Source: Bacteroidota bacterium
GTDB lineage: Bacteria > Bacteroidota > Bacteroidia > 2-12-FULL-35-15
Assembly (NCBI GenBank): GCA_023251835.1
Contig: JAHEXZ010000029.1
Span: 1 to 54,520, forward strand
Length of the DNA: 54,520 nucleotides
Reading direction: 5' to 3'
Shown here piece after piece: positions 20,687-40,675 of the stretch (within the stretch, counting starts at the first letter, position 1; each line of letters starts with the position of its first letter). The position numbers and the translations under genes are program-made. Under the pieces are notes generated by a model. It was not told the origin of the DNA and did not search any database. It worked only from the letters and a program-made list of their open reading frames with translations.

Positions 20687-20763
20687 GGCCATAACAAATA
20701 AGGATTAAACGAAGCGTAACAAAGTGAAGGTTCGCTTTAATCTTGGTCTTTTGCCTGTTCTGC
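20687..20763 (+). other. attC-like recombination site candidate (site A)
   Basis: Directly after the DUF4143 stop comes GGCCATAAC, then the arms AAGGATTAAACGAA (20700-20713) and TTCGCTTTAATCTT (20731-20744). They pair with one unpaired base on each arm, as in attC folds. A possible partner box GTTCTGC lies at about 20757-20763. The same arm sequence occurs after the gene at 35353 (site B). There is no integrase gene in the window. Confidence 0.45.
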
Positions 20764-20796: not shown

Positions 20797-20924
20797 GTTT
20801 TGATTTTTTTATTGGTTGCGTTTCTTTAACGGAAAAAGAGTATTTTCGTACGGGGAATTTGCTTCTCGCGTAGAACAACTACCGAAGGCTTAGTTCAACA
20901 TGGGCTTACCGAATATTGGGGGTG

Positions 20925-21035
20925 CAGTGATAGTTGAAAGTGTGTGCAAGTAATTATCTTTGCTGCGGCTTGACAGTTTTGTGCATTTAAATCCGCAACA
21001 TCGGCAAGCCCCGAAACGCTATGGCGTAAGCGTTA
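20925..21035 (+). repeat. Shared boundary repeat downstream of the DUF4143 gene
   Basis: The stretch from GGGGGTGCAGTG to CCCCGAAACGCTATGGCG aligns well with the minus strand of about 33660-33775, downstream of the T9SS-sorted gene. Matching blocks include AAAGTxTGTGCAA, TATCTTTG and CCGCxACxTCG..CAAGCCC. The rest of 20764-21072 holds no gene. Confidence 0.45.
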
Positions 21036-26115: not shown

Positions 26116-26394
26116 CTGATGTTACGCAAAGAAAAAGAGATTTAAAAATGATAGACTTTTATACTTGTAATGGGACAAGAGAATTAATAAAGAGAGAAGG
26201 GTAACTTTCTCAAAAAGACAATAAAAGTGACTGCTTTAAATAATTCATAATCACTATCATTGTCATTTCTCTTCCTGCTGAAGGCAGGAAGAGAAATCTT
26301 TGCAATTGATTGACAAGATTTCTCACTGCGTTCGAAATGACAGGTGGAAATATAGAAATATTATAGATTAGATATAAATTTTGCACAACATTAG
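26116..26394 (+). mobile_element. MITE-like element, copy 2, with target-site duplication
   Basis: The ends are CTGATGTTACGCAAAG and TTTTGCACAACATTAG (imperfect inverted repeats). The 7-mer TTAATAA occurs immediately outside both ends (26109-26115 and 26395-26401). The 279-bp body matches 37740-38013 almost throughout and has no coding capacity. The rest of the gene-free stretch 26016-26718 holds this element, an unassigned gene tail (about 26459-26580, minus strand, ending NCLKIKYSEMNNAILAGFSL) and a hairpin element. Confidence 0.75.
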
Positions 26395-33432: not shown

Positions 33433-33816
33433 AAATACTAAAATACTAAAATCCTAAATTCTAAATCCTAACTACACTCGCGTTCAGCTCTTTGTTTTCT
33501 TACCTGCAGAAATCGTTGTTTCCGTTTTTCTTTATCGCTCACCACATAACAGTTTCCTTATCTTGCAGCATAAAGTGGTTTAGTAAATCTTCTGAAAAGT
33601 CTTTACTGAGAGACCTACTCTCATCTGTTTTAAAGCATCTACAATCTCACGATTGTTGTTCAAGTCACACACGTTCCGCGGGCTTGCGAAGTGGCGGAGT
33701 TCGGAGCACTTTACTGTCCCACAGCACAAAGATATTTAATTGCACAAAACTTTCTGCTCGCACTGAAGTCGCCATTTTCGCAAACCCCTTGTTGCCCAGT
33801 GCTGTTGTCTTTCGTG
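33433..33816. other. Gene-free stretch at the cassette-run boundary
   Basis: There is no convincing gene in these 384 bases. From the right, the minus strand holds a boundary repeat (33660-33775) shared with 20925-21035, and a possible GTTATGTGG box near 33548-33556. An unassigned degraded frame (NNREIVDALKQMRVGLSVKT) spans about 33580-33660. At the left edge is a word-repeat spacer (CTAAAATCCTAAATTCTAAATCC). Confidence 0.5.
33660..33775 (-). repeat. Shared boundary repeat downstream of the T9SS-sorted gene
   Basis: The minus strand reads AAAGTTTTGTGCAATTAAA, TATCTTTGTGCTG, CCGCCACTTCGCAAGCCCGC and GGAACGTGTG, lining up with 20925-21035 in the same orientation relative to the upstream gene. 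It is probably part of a mobile cassette boundary. Confidence 0.45.
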
Positions 33817-35151
33817 TCAGTCGGTAATTACTAATTTGTCTGAGGCGATTATTTTGTCGTCCTCTGTCAGCCGGATGAAATACAGTCCGCTGGGAAGATT
33901 GTCCCGTGAAAGAACAACTGTCTGTCCATAAATATTTTTTATTTCTTTTACTGTCTGCCCAAAACAATTGTAAATCGTTATAGTTGCGTTATTCAAAAGA
34001 ACGTCTGTCTGCAAAATTGTCTGCGCAGAAAAAGGATTGGGAAATAAAGTAAAATCATTTTGTAAGGTTGAAAATTCATTAAATCCTGTTGTACAGTTAA
34101 TATTTAAATTGTTGTATCCTCTTTGTTTTGCTTGGCATTGCAATTCTGTAAAAGCGGCTTTGTCAGTTCCATTTTCATTCCAAGTTCGTAGTCCTAATGT
34201 ATGCAAATATTCCAAGAATATAGTATCAGTCAAACCATAATAAGTTCCGTAAAAGTTTACAGCCGCTGTATCTAAGTCATGAAGCCATGTAAAATCTATT
34301 TTTTTAACATTTGAAGCGTAGGTATCCCAAGTAGTAAATGTTTGTGTTATGAATTGTGCTTGTTGTGATTCAGAGCTATTGCAGGAAATACTTGAAGGAT
34401 ACCCGTACTGATAAAATATTATTTGTTTTGACGGATATAAACTAACAAGAGTGGAAAAGTCTGTTGGGATTGTAGAAACTGGTTTTACAGTGAAATCATT
34501 ATTTAATGGATAATAAGAAACACCGATGTAGTCACTATTAGTGTTTAATGTTTGAGCAAAAATACTGTAAGTTGTTATTCCGCTAAAGGTTAATTCTGTC
34601 GCCACTTTTAGCCCCGGCCAAAGTGTTCTTGCGTAGGTTGAAACAGAATCATAAAATGTTGTGTATTGCGCCCACATGGTTGCATTTGTCCCCATATAAA
34701 CATCGTGTTCTGACCCAATTACCAAAGAAGTGAGAACGACATTGGGGATATGAACTTTTATACTGTCCAATAATGTTTTGAAACGGTTAATTAGAATTGG
34801 ATTATCAAATGTTGTTGTAGTTAAGTCTGATGGCACTTCTAAATTATTGGTATGAATTGGTACAATAGTTAGATCAATCGGCATACTGTGTAAAGGATAA
34901 TAATAATTTGCAATATCAAATATTGTCATATTGAAAATATTAGGTGCAGTTTCAACGGAAGTCCAGTTTTGAAAAAGCCCCAAACTTCCCATACCTAAAT
35001 CTGCCCCCAGTGCAAAGCAGGAATCGTAATTGAAACTTGGATTTTGCGGATAAGTGCTAACATCAACTCCAATGATATTGTTTGGAGGAGTAATTTGAGC
35101 ATTTGCAATTCCGCAAATTACAATAGTGAAAATGAGTAGTTTTGTTTTCAT
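33817..35151 (-). CDS. Secreted TIM-barrel glycosidase-like protein with T9SS type A sorting domain
   Basis: This 444-residue protein has a signal peptide (MKTKLLIFTIVICGIANA), a barrel-like domain (about 25-345) and a C-terminal T9SS sorting domain (about 365-444: 'NDFTLFPNPFSAQTILQTDV', 'ITIYNCFGQTVKEI', 'LPSGLYFIRLTEDDKII'). The barrel has clan GH-A-like features: IGVDVST, E148 in 'VIGSEHDVYMG' at the acid/base position, and Q248 in 'IFYQYGYPSS' where relatives have the nucleophile Glu. It may therefore be a binding protein rather than an active hydrolase. It is the last member of the cassette-like run and follows attC-like site B. Confidence 0.7.
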   Translation of the reverse strand: MKTKLLIFTIVICGIANAQITPPNNIIGVDVSTYPQNPSFNYDSCFALGADLGMGSLGLFQNWTSVETAPNIFNMTIFDIANYYYPLHSMPIDLTIVPIHTNNLEVPSDLTTTTFDNPILINRFKTLLDSIKVHIPNVVLTSLVIGSEHDVYMGTNATMWAQYTTFYDSVSTYARTLWPGLKVATELTFSGITTYSIFAQTLNTNSDYIGVSYYPLNNDFTVKPVSTIPTDFSTLVSLYPSKQIIFYQYGYPSSISCNSSESQQAQFITQTFTTWDTYASNVKKIDFTWLHDLDTAAVNFYGTYYGLTDTIFLEYLHTLGLRTWNENGTDKAAFTELQCQAKQRGYNNLNINCTTGFNEFSTLQNDFTLFPNPFSAQTILQTDVLLNNATITIYNCFGQTVKEIKNIYGQTVVLSRDNLPSGLYFIRLTEDDKIIASDKLVITD

Positions 35152-35271
35152 TGTCTTTTGGGGTTAAAATAATTTTGATGTGCTAAGGTATCAAAAAAGC
35201 AGTTTATGTTTTATAAAATATCCTTCAAAAATACACCATAAATTTATTGAAACCCCATAGGTAACTTTTTT

Positions 35272-35352
35272 CCTGTTAGGCTCCCGAAGGTTCTTTCAAC
35301 ACAGGATTAAATCGAAGTTCCGCTGCGCTACTCTTCGTTTAATCCTTATATG
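35272..35352 (-). other. attC-like recombination site candidate (site B)
   Basis: On the minus strand GGCATAAC contains the TAA stop of the preceding gene. The arms AGGATTAAACGAAG and CTTCGATTTAATCCT follow, pairing with one extra-helical base, and then TGTTGAAA. AACA and TGTT close the fold outside an asymmetric bulge, as in the R and L boxes of attC. GCCTAAC follows 20 bases later. The arm sequence is shared with site A at 20700-20744. Confidence 0.5.
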
Positions 35353-35889
35353 TTATGCCTCGTTTTTATACTTGTCAAAATATTTATTCAATGCTTCATT
35401 CAGTTCGTTTGAACTAATTTCAAGTCCCGCTGATGCAATATTGAATGGAGAATTGTAATTACTTATATTGAATTGCATCAATTTTCTTCTGAAAGAACTT
35501 TTTTCCTGTTCAAGCCAATATTCTGGATTTTTCACTCCAATGATTACGATACGAGTGCTTTGAATTTTAATTTCCTCAAAACCTAGTATGTCACTCCACT
35601 TTATGAATTCCGTCAACGACTTCTTAGGATTTACATTAAGTCCTTCTGTGGAAATTATTAAAGCAATCTCGGATTTAATTAGTCTCTTTATGCTAACAAA
35701 AATTCCGAGTCCAAAAAAAAGAATTGATGTAATGCCAATACCTCTTGTGAGAATAGGGTTTCTTGCTCTCCAACCTGTCAAATTATCAGCTTCCAGAATA
35801 AGCCAAACTCCAAGCGCAACAAATGCTATGGAGCCAAGTAATAGTAAAATAGATTTCTTTTTACTCGTATAAATTTCAACTCTTTCCAT
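35353..35889 (-). CDS. STM3941-family membrane protein
   Basis: The protein is about 178 residues from the ATG at 35889 (MERVEIYTSKKKSILLLLGSI); the longer frame from 35964 runs into an intron relic and is rejected. It has two N-terminal membrane segments (about 14-33 and 50-68), then a soluble domain with 'IISTEGLNVNPKKSLTEFIKWSDI' and 'IVIIGVKNPEYWLEQE'. This matches the STM3941 family, of unknown function and frequently found on variable DNA. Its stop codon lies inside an attC-like box, which is typical of gene cassettes. Confidence 0.7.
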   Translation of the reverse strand: MERVEIYTSKKKSILLLLGSIAFVALGVWLILEADNLTGWRARNPILTRGIGITSILFFGLGIFVSIKRLIKSEIALIISTEGLNVNPKKSLTEFIKWSDILGFEEIKIQSTRIVIIGVKNPEYWLEQEKSSFRRKLMQFNISNYNSPFNIASAGLEISSNELNEALNKYFDKYKNEA

Positions 35890-35917
35890 TTTGGTCAAAT
35901 GTCTTTTTAAAATGAGG

Positions 35918-36010
35918 CATAATCGGGTCACGCAAGGGAATTTCACCCTAACGTTCCCACACAACCGTACTTGAGACTCTCACCTCACACGGCTCTTCAT
36001 GTTCTTAAAT
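35918..36010 (-). pseudogene. Group II intron 3' end relic (domain V/VI only)
   Basis: On the minus strand 35995-35963 reads GAGCCGTGTGAGG and then AAGTACGGTT, a 33-nt domain V hairpin with the catalytic AGC triad. It is followed by a domain VI-like stretch ending in ACCCGAT before TATGCC. The bases just upstream (GTGATTTAAGAACATGAAGAGCC) match those before the second relic at 36650. No maturase remains. Confidence 0.6.
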
Positions 36011-36116
36011 CACTCAAAGATAACTTCTCTTATTAATGAAAAAGTGAAAATAATTGTCGCAGATGTCAAAAATTTTCCTGTTGTCATATGTTAGCGGTTC
36101 GTTATTATTTGGTTTT

Positions 36117-36566
36117 TTAGGTCTTGTTAGATAGTTGTCGTTTTTTGGCAATAAATATGTTAATTATAAACAGGCAGACTGCCCCAATCATTAATAAAAA
36201 ACCTGTTTGAAAGTTATATAATGAAAAATTTGGTCTAATAATCAAATTGCCTGCGTGCCCATTTTCTTCTAAATGGATTTGAAGAAGACATAAAATGAAT
36301 AAAACAATTGTTAACCAAATTAACCACATGGTTGTTCTGTTTCTAATTTTTAAACTATCAAATGTGAATAAATTAATCAAATTTAAAATTATGAGTCCAA
36401 TGCTCAGTGGAAACGTAAGTATACTATCTTCTATTTTAATATATTCATAGGTAGTGCTTGTTGGGATATTTATTTTACCATATGGAACAAAAAATAATCC
36501 AATAAAAAGAAGTAATGGTAATATGGTATTGAGTAAATAAATGTCTCTATAAGAATATTTGTTCAT
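36117..36566 (-). CDS. Hypothetical membrane protein (cassette-like)
   Basis: This is about 149 residues from the ATG at 36566 (MNKYSYRDIYLLNTILPLLLF); the frame extends to 36593 but that part overlaps the intron boundary. Four membrane segments are seen at about 10-30, 58-77, 84-104 and 120-140. I do not recognise the family. It lies between two intron relics on the same strand as its neighbours. After its stop the minus strand reads ACCGCTAACATATGACAACAGG, a possible attC R-box. Function unknown. Confidence 0.55.
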   Translation of the reverse strand: MNKYSYRDIYLLNTILPLLLFIGLFFVPYGKINIPTSTTYEYIKIEDSILTFPLSIGLIILNLINLFTFDSLKIRNRTTMWLIWLTIVLFILCLLQIHLEENGHAGNLIIRPNFSLYNFQTGFLLMIGAVCLFIINIFIAKKRQLSNKT

Positions 36567-36604
36567 GTCTGTCCGTTTAAAACCAGTCGTCAAAATTTGT
36601 TGCT

Positions 36605-37030
36605 GCTAATCGGTTCAGGCAAAGGAATCTCACCTTCACCTTCCCACACAACCGTACGTGACAATCTCCCGTCATACGGCTCTTCATGTTAATAAATCAC
36701 ATAAATATATTCATATTTACGGACGAACCAATAACCAATGTGCAAATAAATTGGGATGTTCTTTGTATTTTGTTTTCAGGTATCTTACCGATGCCTTTTT
36801 GTACAAGTCTTTCTCCCACTTTACCCATTTCAGTAGTCGTGCGTTCAATTGGTTCCATACTATCCGCATATCATCTTCCCAAAATTTGTGATAATAATTG
36901 ATTATCCCACATACTATCGGGTTGATTTCTTTGGCTATTTCTTCCAATGGTTTGTGTCTCTTATGTATGTTCAATTGTTTGAACTTTTCCATAATGCTTG
37001 TTTTCGATTTCTGACTTACACAGATGCTTG
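36605..37030 (-). pseudogene. Group II intron relic: maturase C-terminus plus domain V
   Basis: The minus strand encodes the last about 100 residues of an intron reverse transcriptase/maturase: 'KTSIMEKFKQLNIHKRHKPL', 'EEIAKEINPIVCGIINYYHKF' (maturase X domain), 'LNARLLKWVKWEKDL' and 'PNLFAHWLLVRP'. About 35 bases on, 36682-36650 forms domain V (GAGCCGTATGACG, then CACGTACGGTT). The intron ends in AACCGAT before TAGCAGC. All reverse transcriptase motifs are gone, so it is immobile. Confidence 0.75.
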
Positions 37031-37085
37031 GAATGGATTTTACCTTAGCTGTTATGGGCTGTAAATATCATTATGTTAGTCAGTT

Positions 37086-37625
37086 CTAATATTTTTCAAA
37101 TTGTCTATTCAGATAATTCATGATTTTATTGTATTCTGTTATGTCTTTCTCATTCTTTGGTAATCTGCGACACTTGATTCTATAACTATAATTTTTATCA
37201 TAATGTGTCGGTTCTGAATCTATTATTTTCAAAGTCTTTTCATTTTGCTTATACCAATTTTGTAAATTGTTCTTAGAATTTTGAGGTGATAGATTTTTTT
37301 GCAATTCTTTATTTTTATTTCGAACTATACTAATAGAATCCGAAGAAATCTTCGGTATAATTAAAATAAATATTTCACATTGCCCTTCCAAAAACGGTGG
37401 ATCATTAGAAGTCATGTCCGGGACAAGGTCTATAGATGTTGATTGTATAACAAATTCATTATAATAGGCAGTGTCTATTTTTGTAGTCCATCCAGTTGGT
37501 AAAGAGTTACCTATTTGTTTTGCTGTTTTATTTATATCCTCTTTTGCGATTTTATTATTCTGCGCAATAACCGATGAATACAGAGTCATTAAAATAACTA
37601 TTGTTTTAAATACTGTCTTTTTCAT
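37086..37625 (-). CDS. Hypothetical secreted protein (cassette-like)
   Basis: This 179-residue protein has a Sec signal peptide (MKKTVFKTIVILMTLYSSVIAQ) and a soluble remainder rich in Lys/Asn with no recognised domain. One patch, 'LPTGWTTKIDTAYYNEFVIQ', recalls small secreted proteins found on variable DNA. It is the first gene of the same-strand run. After its stop the minus strand reads ACAGCCCATAACAGC, an R-box-like sequence. It could be an imported cassette gene. Function unknown. Confidence 0.6.
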   Translation of the reverse strand: MKKTVFKTIVILMTLYSSVIAQNNKIAKEDINKTAKQIGNSLPTGWTTKIDTAYYNEFVIQSTSIDLVPDMTSNDPPFLEGQCEIFILIIPKISSDSISIVRNKNKELQKNLSPQNSKNNLQNWYKQNEKTLKIIDSEPTHYDKNYSYRIKCRRLPKNEKDITEYNKIMNYLNRQFEKY

Positions 37626-38431: not shown

Positions 38432-39247
38432 TTATTTTTTAATTGCTTTTTCAAACTTTCTCCAATGTTTTCCCAATTCTCGCCAAACTTCGGCAAAGTC
38501 AGGAATTTCGCTCATTTGACCGGAAAGATGATTTTTCCAATGAGTCTGGAATATTTTCTCCTTTTTAGCTATCTCTTCAACAAGTTTAGATGAATCTTTT
38601 TTCTTGTGATTAGCTTTCGCCTGGAACTGAAAAATATAATCCTGAATATCTAATCCTTCGTTCTCAAACAAATACCATAAATCATAGATATCTCTTGGTG
38701 CTGTGCGTTGCATAAGGGAACGCATTTTTTCGGATACAATTTCAGGCATCGAATAGCAAAGTATTTCGTATTCCGGTAAATCAGAGTAAGAATGAATAAT
38801 TTGTTTGTTTTCGGGCGAGTCACAAATTAATTCATCAGAAGCAATATCTATCTTAATGTCTTTATTTGCACCAGCTCCACCGAGTGGACCGGTATATGAA
38901 ATGTAAAAATTGAAATTGCCGGTTTCACGTGTTGTGTCATCCTTTATTGCAAGTCTAATCCTTGATTCTTCATATATCCAATCGAGCACTTTCTGAAATT
39001 CTGCTTTTATTTTACCCGACTCAAAACCGTTTTGGATATATGTAAAGTCAAGGTCTTCAGAAAACCGGTAATCACCAAAATATGCTTTTTTTAAAACGGT
39101 TCCTCCTTTAAAGGCTAAATTTTGTTTTAAGAATTCATTTTTTGAAATTCCAAAAAGTACCCATGATATGGCATAGTCTTTTTCTATTTGGGTATCTCTT
39201 ACTCCGGCTTCTCCAGCAAGCGAATGTATTTCTCCAGGTTTTATCAT
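38432..39247 (-). CDS. abiEii: AbiEii-type nucleotidyltransferase toxin
   Basis: This 271-residue protein of the AbiEii/DUF1814 family has the nucleotidyltransferase core 'LAFKGGTVLKKAYFGDYRFS' followed by EDLDFT (about residues 44-70; GG then D-x-D), a lysine/aspartate-rich middle and 'RTAPRDIYDLWYLFENEGLD'. Type IV toxins of this group block growth by modifying tRNA acceptor ends with pyrimidines. It is encoded directly after its antitoxin (1-base gap). The N-terminal 'MIKPGEIHSLAGEAGVRDTQ' is the usual family start. The pair lies between tRNA-Leu and its duplicated 3' end. Confidence 0.88.
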   Translation of the reverse strand: MIKPGEIHSLAGEAGVRDTQIEKDYAISWVLFGISKNEFLKQNLAFKGGTVLKKAYFGDYRFSEDLDFTYIQNGFESGKIKAEFQKVLDWIYEESRIRLAIKDDTTRETGNFNFYISYTGPLGGAGANKDIKIDIASDELICDSPENKQIIHSYSDLPEYEILCYSMPEIVSEKMRSLMQRTAPRDIYDLWYLFENEGLDIQDYIFQFQAKANHKKKDSSKLVEEIAKKEKIFQTHWKNHLSGQMSEIPDFAEVWRELGKHWRKFEKAIKK

Positions 39248-39248
39248 T

Positions 39249-40070
39249 TTATGTATGAATAGATGTAATTACCGTATCGATGTCTAAATTATCTATAATT
39301 TTCCACCTGGAATCTGTTATACCTTTTTTAGGAAGTAATGGATCCAATGGAGCATAGGCATCAGTAATTTTTTTGAGAAGCGAACTTCTTAAATCCTCAA
39401 AAATTTCAAGTTTTTCTGCTATAAATCCTAATCTTTTTAAAACGACTTGAGCATCGAAGAGCTCTGTATACTCTTCTAATTTTTTAGTATTGATTTGATT
39501 TTTGCTCTTGTAAAGTGCTTTTACTATTTCGGTTATTCCACCTGCATAATCAGGTTTATATAAACTATCCACAAATGTTTTTTCCAAATCACTACAGTAA
39601 ACCTGGTTGAAATCATCAATCCAATGCTTTTTATAACCGAAAAAATGTTTTTCATTGAGAGTTATAAATTCAAATCTTATTTTTTTTATCTGCCGTTTTT
39701 TGGGTAGGATTCGTTTCTTAGTTACAATTTGTTCCAACAAAGAGGGTTGGGTTATTAAACCATGAATATCCAACGCGCTATAAAAACCAATATAATATTC
39801 GTTTGGATTTGCAAGTGCAGCAGCTGCCTGATGCCAATTCGGAAAGTAATTCGCGCTGTTCTGCTCAAAGGGAATAATAGTATATAAGCCCCCTTCTATT
39901 CTTAGCAATAAGCCCTTGTTTACCATTTGTCTTAACTGTGCCCTAAGTGCCACAGGTTTTAATGCTGGCAGGAGGCTTGAAGCATCTGATAGTGTGAAAA
40001 AAGTCAAATTGTCTTTGTGCAATTGCTCTAACAACTTTGAGGCATTGGCAGAGATAGTTTTAGCTTTCAT
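39249..40070 (-). CDS. abiEi: AbiEi-type antitoxin / autorepressor
   Basis: This 273-residue protein has an N-terminal winged helix-turn-helix (about residues 1-65: ASKLLEQLHKDNLTFFTLSD, ALRAQLRQMVNKGLLLRIEGGLY) and the AbiEi C-terminal domain ('YYIGFYSALDIHGL', 'RFEFITLNEKHFFGYKKHWI', 'YCSDLEKTFVDSLYKPDYAGGI'). AbiEi antagonises AbiEii and represses the operon by binding inverted repeats in the promoter. A matching inverted repeat lies just upstream. Confidence 0.85.
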   Translation of the reverse strand: MKAKTISANASKLLEQLHKDNLTFFTLSDASSLLPALKPVALRAQLRQMVNKGLLLRIEGGLYTIIPFEQNSANYFPNWHQAAAALANPNEYYIGFYSALDIHGLITQPSLLEQIVTKKRILPKKRQIKKIRFEFITLNEKHFFGYKKHWIDDFNQVYCSDLEKTFVDSLYKPDYAGGITEIVKALYKSKNQINTKKLEEYTELFDAQVVLKRLGFIAEKLEIFEDLRSSLLKKITDAYAPLDPLLPKKGITDSRWKIIDNLDIDTVITSIHT

Positions 40071-40465: not shown

Positions 40466-40547
40466 GTGCGGATGAAGGGACTCGAACCCCCACGCCTTTC
40501 GGCACCAGATCCTAAGTCTGGCGCGGCTGCCAATTACGCCACATCCG
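40466..40547 (-). tRNA. tRNA-Leu (UAG anticodon)
   Basis: The minus strand gives acceptor GCGGATG pairing with CATCCGC and discriminator A at 40466. It has D-arm TGGCGTAATTGGCAG, anticodon arm CCAGACTTAGGATCTGG with anticodon TAG, a long variable arm, and T-arm GGGGGTTCGAGTCCC. CCA is not encoded. It is an integration target: its 3' end is repeated at 38116. Confidence 0.93.
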
Positions 40548-40675
40548 CATATGATTTTGATTGACGGGCAGCAAAGATAGCTCTTTATTTGTTCAATACA
40601 AAATTTGAAAAATCTTTACTTTTCTTAATAAACAATTGATTATAAACAACTGATTTATAATAACCTGTTACAAAA

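Follow-up and report, generated by a model that had tools for sequence, protein, structure and literature searches.

In an integron cassette, the first bases (TTRRRY after G) complement the R'' box at the cassette's own end, because both meet in the circular cassette. Surveys pick integrases by the additional domain of the integron integrase, IntI (PMC2426708), and this domain is regarded as a defining characteristic (PMC9668308). Complete integrons are reported to be nearly absent from Bacteroidetes, for which one complete case, in Salinibacter ruber, is described (PMC9024848), and truncated group IIB introns have been reported in clusters of attC sites lacking an integrase (CALINs) of halophiles (PMC7923331). 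The present locus lies in a 54,520-nucleotide stretch of Bacteroidota DNA (contig JAHEXZ010000029.1 of assembly GCA_023251835.1; here "the window"), which corresponds to C100 among the 171 contigs of a 4.1 Mb draft genome (G000; genomes are denoted G, contigs C, and loci L). From 37.7 to 33.5 kb on the minus strand stand four accessory genes, encoding a secreted hypothetical protein (gene 1), a small membrane protein (gene 2), an STM3941-family protein (gene 3), and a T9SS-sorted protein (gene 4), followed by sixA and ppk. An earlier note on this DNA had correctly recognized the four genes on one strand and had proposed that they form a CALIN. We put at about 80% the probability that these genes stand in an integron-type cassette array, now decayed and invaded by introns, whose cognate recombinase is most likely a tyrosine recombinase, sister to IntI, encoded on contig C144 of the same genome. 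On the sequences compared, the cassettes are best read as belonging to an unrecognized Bacteroidota integron lineage. Standard searches skip such a system because its integrase lacks the usual signature, and no account of it was found in the open-access literature (subscription papers and preprints lay outside the search).

The circular-intermediate signature of integron cassettes is present at gene 3. The cassette of this gene (35352-35921, minus strand) starts with (GT)TATGCCTC and ends with the box GAGGCATAAC at 35361-35352; with the core GT included, its start, GTTATGCCTC, is the exact 10-base complement (10/10) of that box. The stop codon of gene 3 falls inside the box, as the earlier note had observed. 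The TAAC boxes that it had placed at or just after three stops are also there: the R''-type box AGCCCATAAC of gene 1 (37051-37060, minus strand), AACCGCTAAC of gene 2, and GAGGCATAAC of gene 3, although the position given for the third was about 8 bases off. The cassette of gene 2 (36090-36608, minus strand) starts with (GT)TAGCAGC and ends with its box at 36099-36090. A simple count of TAAC boxes near stops gives a mild excess only. Pairing of the ends recurs elsewhere in the genome: three consecutive cassettes on contig C147 have ends that complement at 9-10 of 10 positions, and on contig C29 the match is 10/10. When starts and ends were compared across seven arrays, complementarity at ≥8/10 held for 43 of 50 adjacent pairs, versus 169 of 1268 non-adjacent ones (Fisher 6e-29); two extra pairs come from a small array that was counted in each orientation.

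The attC sites themselves are conserved in folded structure rather than in sequence. A scan of selected stretches for a YAAC-stem-GTTA arrangement reveals arrays of ~110-180 nt sites in the genus mates G009 and G035, one site in G011, and many in G244, which belongs to another family. In 15 such Bacteroidota sites, from four genomes and one plasmid, a common stem has 92.7% of its cells paired, and in 16 of 20 pairs both partners vary; its covariation is 0.528, versus 0.130 when shuffled and ≤0.108 when slid. A covariance model (R3) of these 15 sites, none of them from this genome, matches two places in the window and nothing else there above 12.1 bits. One is the site after gene 4 (33665-33797, minus strand; 51.0 bits, E 7.6e-10), which consists of R'' GGGCAAC, the stem GGGGTTTGCGAA..TTCGCAAGCCC, and an R' (..GGAACGT/; a slash marks a junction) broken by an intron. 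The other lies at 20893-21024 on the plus strand (56.4 bits, E 4.2e-11). The earlier note had omitted the former from its list of attC-like sites, and the latter lies just downstream of its entry at 20687-20763. The four-gene run contains one R3-positive site and three boxes, with no integrase, and the second site is 13 kb off. R3 also matches contigs C147, C108, and C79 of the same genome, and it finds nothing in ~100 kb of G010, in a class 1 integron, or in the integron of G173. A model of ten class 1 attC sites recovers plasmid attC sites of class 1 integrons, some outside its training set, as well as one site beside a true IntI in the Bacteroidia genome G173. This class-1 model, an attC covariance model of the kind that the earlier note had suggested running, gives nothing at the window boxes, its best score (16.5 bits) falling elsewhere, at a place without an L box. 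A plain scan of the window for TAAC..GTTA with folding energy was also tried and was not discriminating.

After gene 3 lies a palindromic hairpin, AAGGATTAAACGAAG..CTTCGATTTAATCC (35293-35352, minus strand), within the interval 35272-35352 that the earlier note had called attC-like. The fold is real (folding z -2.7), but the attC identity did not hold up: neither the class-1 nor the Bacteroidota attC model matches it, and its R' half is missing or altered. The hairpin has seven matches in the genome, nearly all directly after accessory genes, with further copies on contigs C126, C79, C147, and C29 and in the window at 20690-20745 (plus strand), 8 bases past the stop of a 413 aa open reading frame (ORF). 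On C147, a complete box-to-box version stands between two cassettes. Among public genomes and viruses the exact pattern occurs in this genus only, save two single matches in unrelated genomes, which makes it a local element. Relative to the preceding gene, the extra unpaired base of the hairpin sits on one arm in C147 and on the other in the window (L012, L009), as if the stem had been inverted.

Pieces of group II intron (D5-D6, D1, and a maturase domain are present) occupy three junctions of the run, two as 3' ends and one as a 5' end. The earlier note was right about the array-like nature of the run, which the complementary ends and the two strong R3 matches bear out, but it missed these pieces; at two of its three named junctions, the boxes prove to be attC stubs fused to intron pieces rather than intact sites. 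At the first, an attC left-arm stub, AGCTAAGGT, which also occurs at a site on contig C108, comes after the box of gene 1. Fragment 1 (36609-37050, minus strand; 5'-truncated, with an approximate 5' limit) has the 3' end CCGAT/TAGCAGC. It encodes the C-terminus of a maturase (a 91 aa ORF, 36992-36717; PF08388, 2e-8) and has D5-D6 at 36690-36609 (Rfam match 36684-36609), which scores 46.9 bits with RF00029 and 99.5 bits with R2, a model of intron 3' ends. Fragment 2 (35922-36003, minus strand) is D5-D6 only, with the 3' end CCGAT/TATGCCTC, and scores 49.2 bits with RF00029 (35997-35922) and 106.1 bits with R2. The 5' fragment, which begins GTGTGACTTGAAC.. in domain I, spans 33480-33670 on the minus strand, its 3' limit being approximate, and ends before sixA. 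It matches RF01999 (D1) with 76 bits at 33622-33502 and has lost its 3' part; its start was set by aligning intact relatives.

The lineage of these introns was found class-wide with R2. Its members with TGAYCCGAT-type ends mostly precede TA[TG].., and at six of 11 loci, in five genomes, the 3' exon complements a following cassette-end box over a run of 9-10 (G000 twice, at window fragment 2 and on C29; G011; G106; G161; G076). At most 2% of control positions equal these runs, and other introns, which have the usual end CTACTCGAC, show no complementarity of this kind. At the other side, intron 5' ends abut attC arms. Since intact relatives begin GTGTGNC, and the 5' exons end ..GGAACGT in the window and ..GACGT on C88, insertion is at GT/TA in the R' core; this position recurs in several Bacteroidia families. 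The D5 triad is AGC, and the introns lie in gene orientation. Genome G106 has the same layout as the window: a 3' intron end, a cassette, an attC-like site, a cassette, an attC-like site, and a 5' intron end. The G106 array (L106, 8150-9948) also carries, by inspection only, an AIPR-like protein, apparently for phage defence; in the G173 integron (L127, 197-2135), a DNA methyltransferase-like gene and its partner likewise have the look of phage defence.

A search of the genome's contigs for intI, as the earlier note had suggested, found no canonical IntI, in line with its claim. The 373 aa tyrosine recombinase on contig C144 scores 208 bits with the IntI model, for which the cut-off is 265, and integrases of its clade score ~199-216 bits. 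Proteins of this clade have 58-59 residues between KGxKxR and HxLRH, versus 100 in IntI, and so are without the IntI additional domain (the patch). They keep the catalytic residues and have a C-terminal SP[LF]D-type motif, as in IntI, and in a tree the C144 clade groups with IntI (100/99), apart from the Xer proteins that their genomes also encode. The best Foldseek match of the predicted structure is Vibrio IntI (2a3v), followed after IntI by archaeal XerA; because confidence in the arrangement of the domains is low (pTM 0.46), this match is only supportive. Array integrases carry N-terminal extensions of ~95-200 aa (L230, 18700-19920; L251; L252), which might stand in for the IntI domain in binding folded attC.

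Relatives place this integrase type beside arrays. In G244, the first of 36 candidate sites, which extend over 73 kb, is 0.6 kb past the integrase gene, and C144-type integrases also adjoin arrays in G009 and G011. Plasmids of Chryseobacterium (56% identity), Pontibacter, and Rufibacter also encode such integrases, and small genes on the same strand come next, along with attC-like sites; no integrase of this type was found in viral contigs. An attI-like sequence, ATATAANNAA/GTT[AG]G, lies ~90-105 bases past the stop and is common to C144, G011, G009, and Chryseobacterium. On C144 itself (L084, 1-1821), the integrase gene is followed by the attI-like junction ATATAAGCAA/GTTAGGCAAC and a partial gene from MTDNQNNPRAI, at which the contig ends and which is likely the first cassette. 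The CALIN proposal fits only insofar as no integrase is adjacent to the run; elsewhere the genome encodes an IntI sister beside an attI-like site, and the attC sites are of a type that escapes the class-1 model. On a Klebsiella plasmid (L255, NZ_CP084417.1, 6133-6855), blaVEB-3 is immediately preceded by the 3' part of a clade recombinase (51% identity). The blaVEB-3 junction GTTAGCGGTAATTT equals the cassette start on contig C29; thus, blaVEB may have been carried as the first cassette in an integron of Bacteroidota.

These sequences suggest how the locus would have arisen. Accessory genes would be inserted as circles, by recombination between the G and TT of a GTTRNNN core, and each cassette would end in its own attC, a single-strand hairpin with the boxes YAAC..GTTA. 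A group II intron lineage that is apparently specialized on attC sites, and probably homes to them, would have inserted at GT/TA in the R' core, in gene orientation. Later truncations and deletions would have left the 3' intron ends before genes 2 and 3 and the 5' intron end behind gene 4. The enzyme responsible would most likely be the C144 recombinase beside its attI-like site, and we infer that it acts on these sites via the folded strand.

Several points weigh against this reading. The ends of the gene 2 cassette complement at 7/10 only, no matched cassette start was found for genes 1 and 4, and complete matched cassette boundaries could not be assigned for genes 1, 2, and 4. The hairpin after gene 3 goes unrecognized by both attC models. 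Five of the 11 intron loci (C88, C108, G244, the second G161 copy, and window fragment 1) are without a long matched cassette end. The integrase tree covers few sequences and came with a long-branch warning, and the ~95 aa N-terminal extension of the C144 protein is an undefined domain, its HARP match (E 0.007) being below the cut-off. No array is seen beside the integrase in its own genome, because the contig ends ~700 bases from the gene. Finally, G035 and G106 have sites without a close integrase homologue, so that the presence of sites and of integrase is imperfectly linked.

A true CALIN would be the product of a canonical IntI integron, now lost or remote, that delivered the cassettes, with the C144 protein an unrelated chromosomal Xer-like enzyme. 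An integron of that kind, with CATAAC/GTTATG cassettes, does exist in the class Bacteroidia (G173), and the NCBIfam label of the C144 protein is of the XerA type (recomb_XerA). Yet canonical IntI occurs in one of 395 genomes of the class, while large arrays are found in the IntI-less G244 and G009, and it is the C144 clade that immediately adjoins arrays and an attI-like site. Since the G173 and class 1 integrons are also unmatched by the Bacteroidota attC model, we regard this origin as improbable.

In a second alternative, the boxes and hairpins would be ordinary terminators or REP/MITE-like repeats, and the genes an unrelated accessory island split by group II introns. The hairpin after gene 3, near-identical between its copies, does resemble a mobile repeat, and the long hairpins are ordinary in folding energy; still, terminators do not predict that an upstream junction complements a downstream box, nor do they explain covarying stems with a fixed AAC/GTT box or arrays that start at an integrase. 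The adjacent-cassette pair test and the stem covariation both disfavour this account, which we hold to be very unlikely. Intron pieces at three junctions could also be taken as the sign of a pseudo-array, in which introns inserted after terminators and homologous recombination between their copies joined unrelated genes, with no integrase at the locus; it has been proposed that cassettes can form through recombination between IIC-attC introns (reviewed in PMC7923331). However, C147 and other arrays have the same cassette ends without introns, and what follows the intron as 3' exon is the R' half of a pre-existing cassette; we hold this account, too, to be very unlikely. The intron-invaded cassette array with a C144-type recombinase is thus the reading that we retain.

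The genes of the run have the following features, all on the minus strand. Gene 1 (37086-37625, 179 aa) is without a Pfam or NCBIfam match and has a GC content of 27.8%, versus 35.4% for the window. The ORF of gene 2 extends from 36593 to 36117. Gene 3 (NF041635, 5e-45) is likely coding from ~35889 to 35353; its listed ORF start (35964) falls within intron sequence, and the likely start is an ATG near 35889. Gene 4 (33817-35151, 444 aa) matches PF18962 (6e-10) and has a weak GH53 similarity (PF07745, 0.004). In the gene-order comparison that the earlier note had called for, the four genus mates examined keep sixA, ppk, and the next gene, have other genes upstream of sixA, and do not contain the four-gene run at this place. 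The STM3941 protein has a single distant match (30%) among 35 genus mates. An AbiEii/AbiEi-like toxin-antitoxin pair adjoins the run (38432-40070), beside a tRNA-Leu at 40466-40548, and copies of a dispersed repeat (GTCATTTCGAACGCAGTGAGAAATCT..) lie a short way upstream of gene 1 (~37965-37880), near 26300 in the window, and on another contig (L123, near 5950).

The locus itself is a decayed, intron-ridden fragment, and its worth is as a pointer to a wider system. We lean, with some reserve, towards the view that Bacteroidota hold a second deep integron lineage, with an IntI-sister integrase that does without the additional domain deemed necessary for activity, its own attC class, an attI-like site, and an attC-homing intron; surveys based on the IntI patch would miss this lineage, and it may be the source of some clinical resistance cassettes, such as blaVEB. 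If true, an IntI-sister without the additional domain runs dozens of cassettes in a common phylum, integron gene capture is wider than thought, and both the role of the IntI domain and what the N-terminal extension replaces become testable. Judging by the truncated clade member that immediately precedes blaVEB-3, clinical resistance may already have drawn on this reservoir. The intron lineage would add a sense-strand route of homing to attC.

Like sedentary chromosomal integrons and CALINs, such as the Vibrio superintegron, the system has tandem cassettes in one orientation, complementary ends, a G/TT core, structure-conserved attC hairpins of ~110-180 nt, and, in relatives, an attI-like site with an integrase at one end. 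Unlike them, it has an integrase that is without the IntI additional domain, falls below the IntI cut-off, and bears an N-terminal extension of ~95 aa, and its attC sites are missed by the class-1 attC model. The introns resemble group IIC-attC introns (PMC7923331) in their insertion at GT/T of the attC core box (TTGT/T) beside a hairpin. They differ from that group in their D5 triad (AGC, not CGC) and in their orientation: they occupy the top-strand R' box in gene orientation, whereas group IIC-attC introns, which encode a class C maturase, lie in the bottom-strand R'' and run opposite to the genes. Truncated group IIB introns of the Halorhodospira halochloris CALIN and the Tanatar-5 array (PMC7923331) are similar in being IIB-type pieces in integrase-less arrays, one of them in gene orientation just downstream of attC; here, the exact GT/TA position is given by complementary ends, in several genomes and in another phylum. 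Archaeal XerA and Xer proteins share with the integrase a similar catalytic core, the next Foldseek rank after IntI, and the NCBIfam name, but the integrase differs from them in its SP[LF]D-type C-terminal motif, its tree position with IntI, and its association with arrays.

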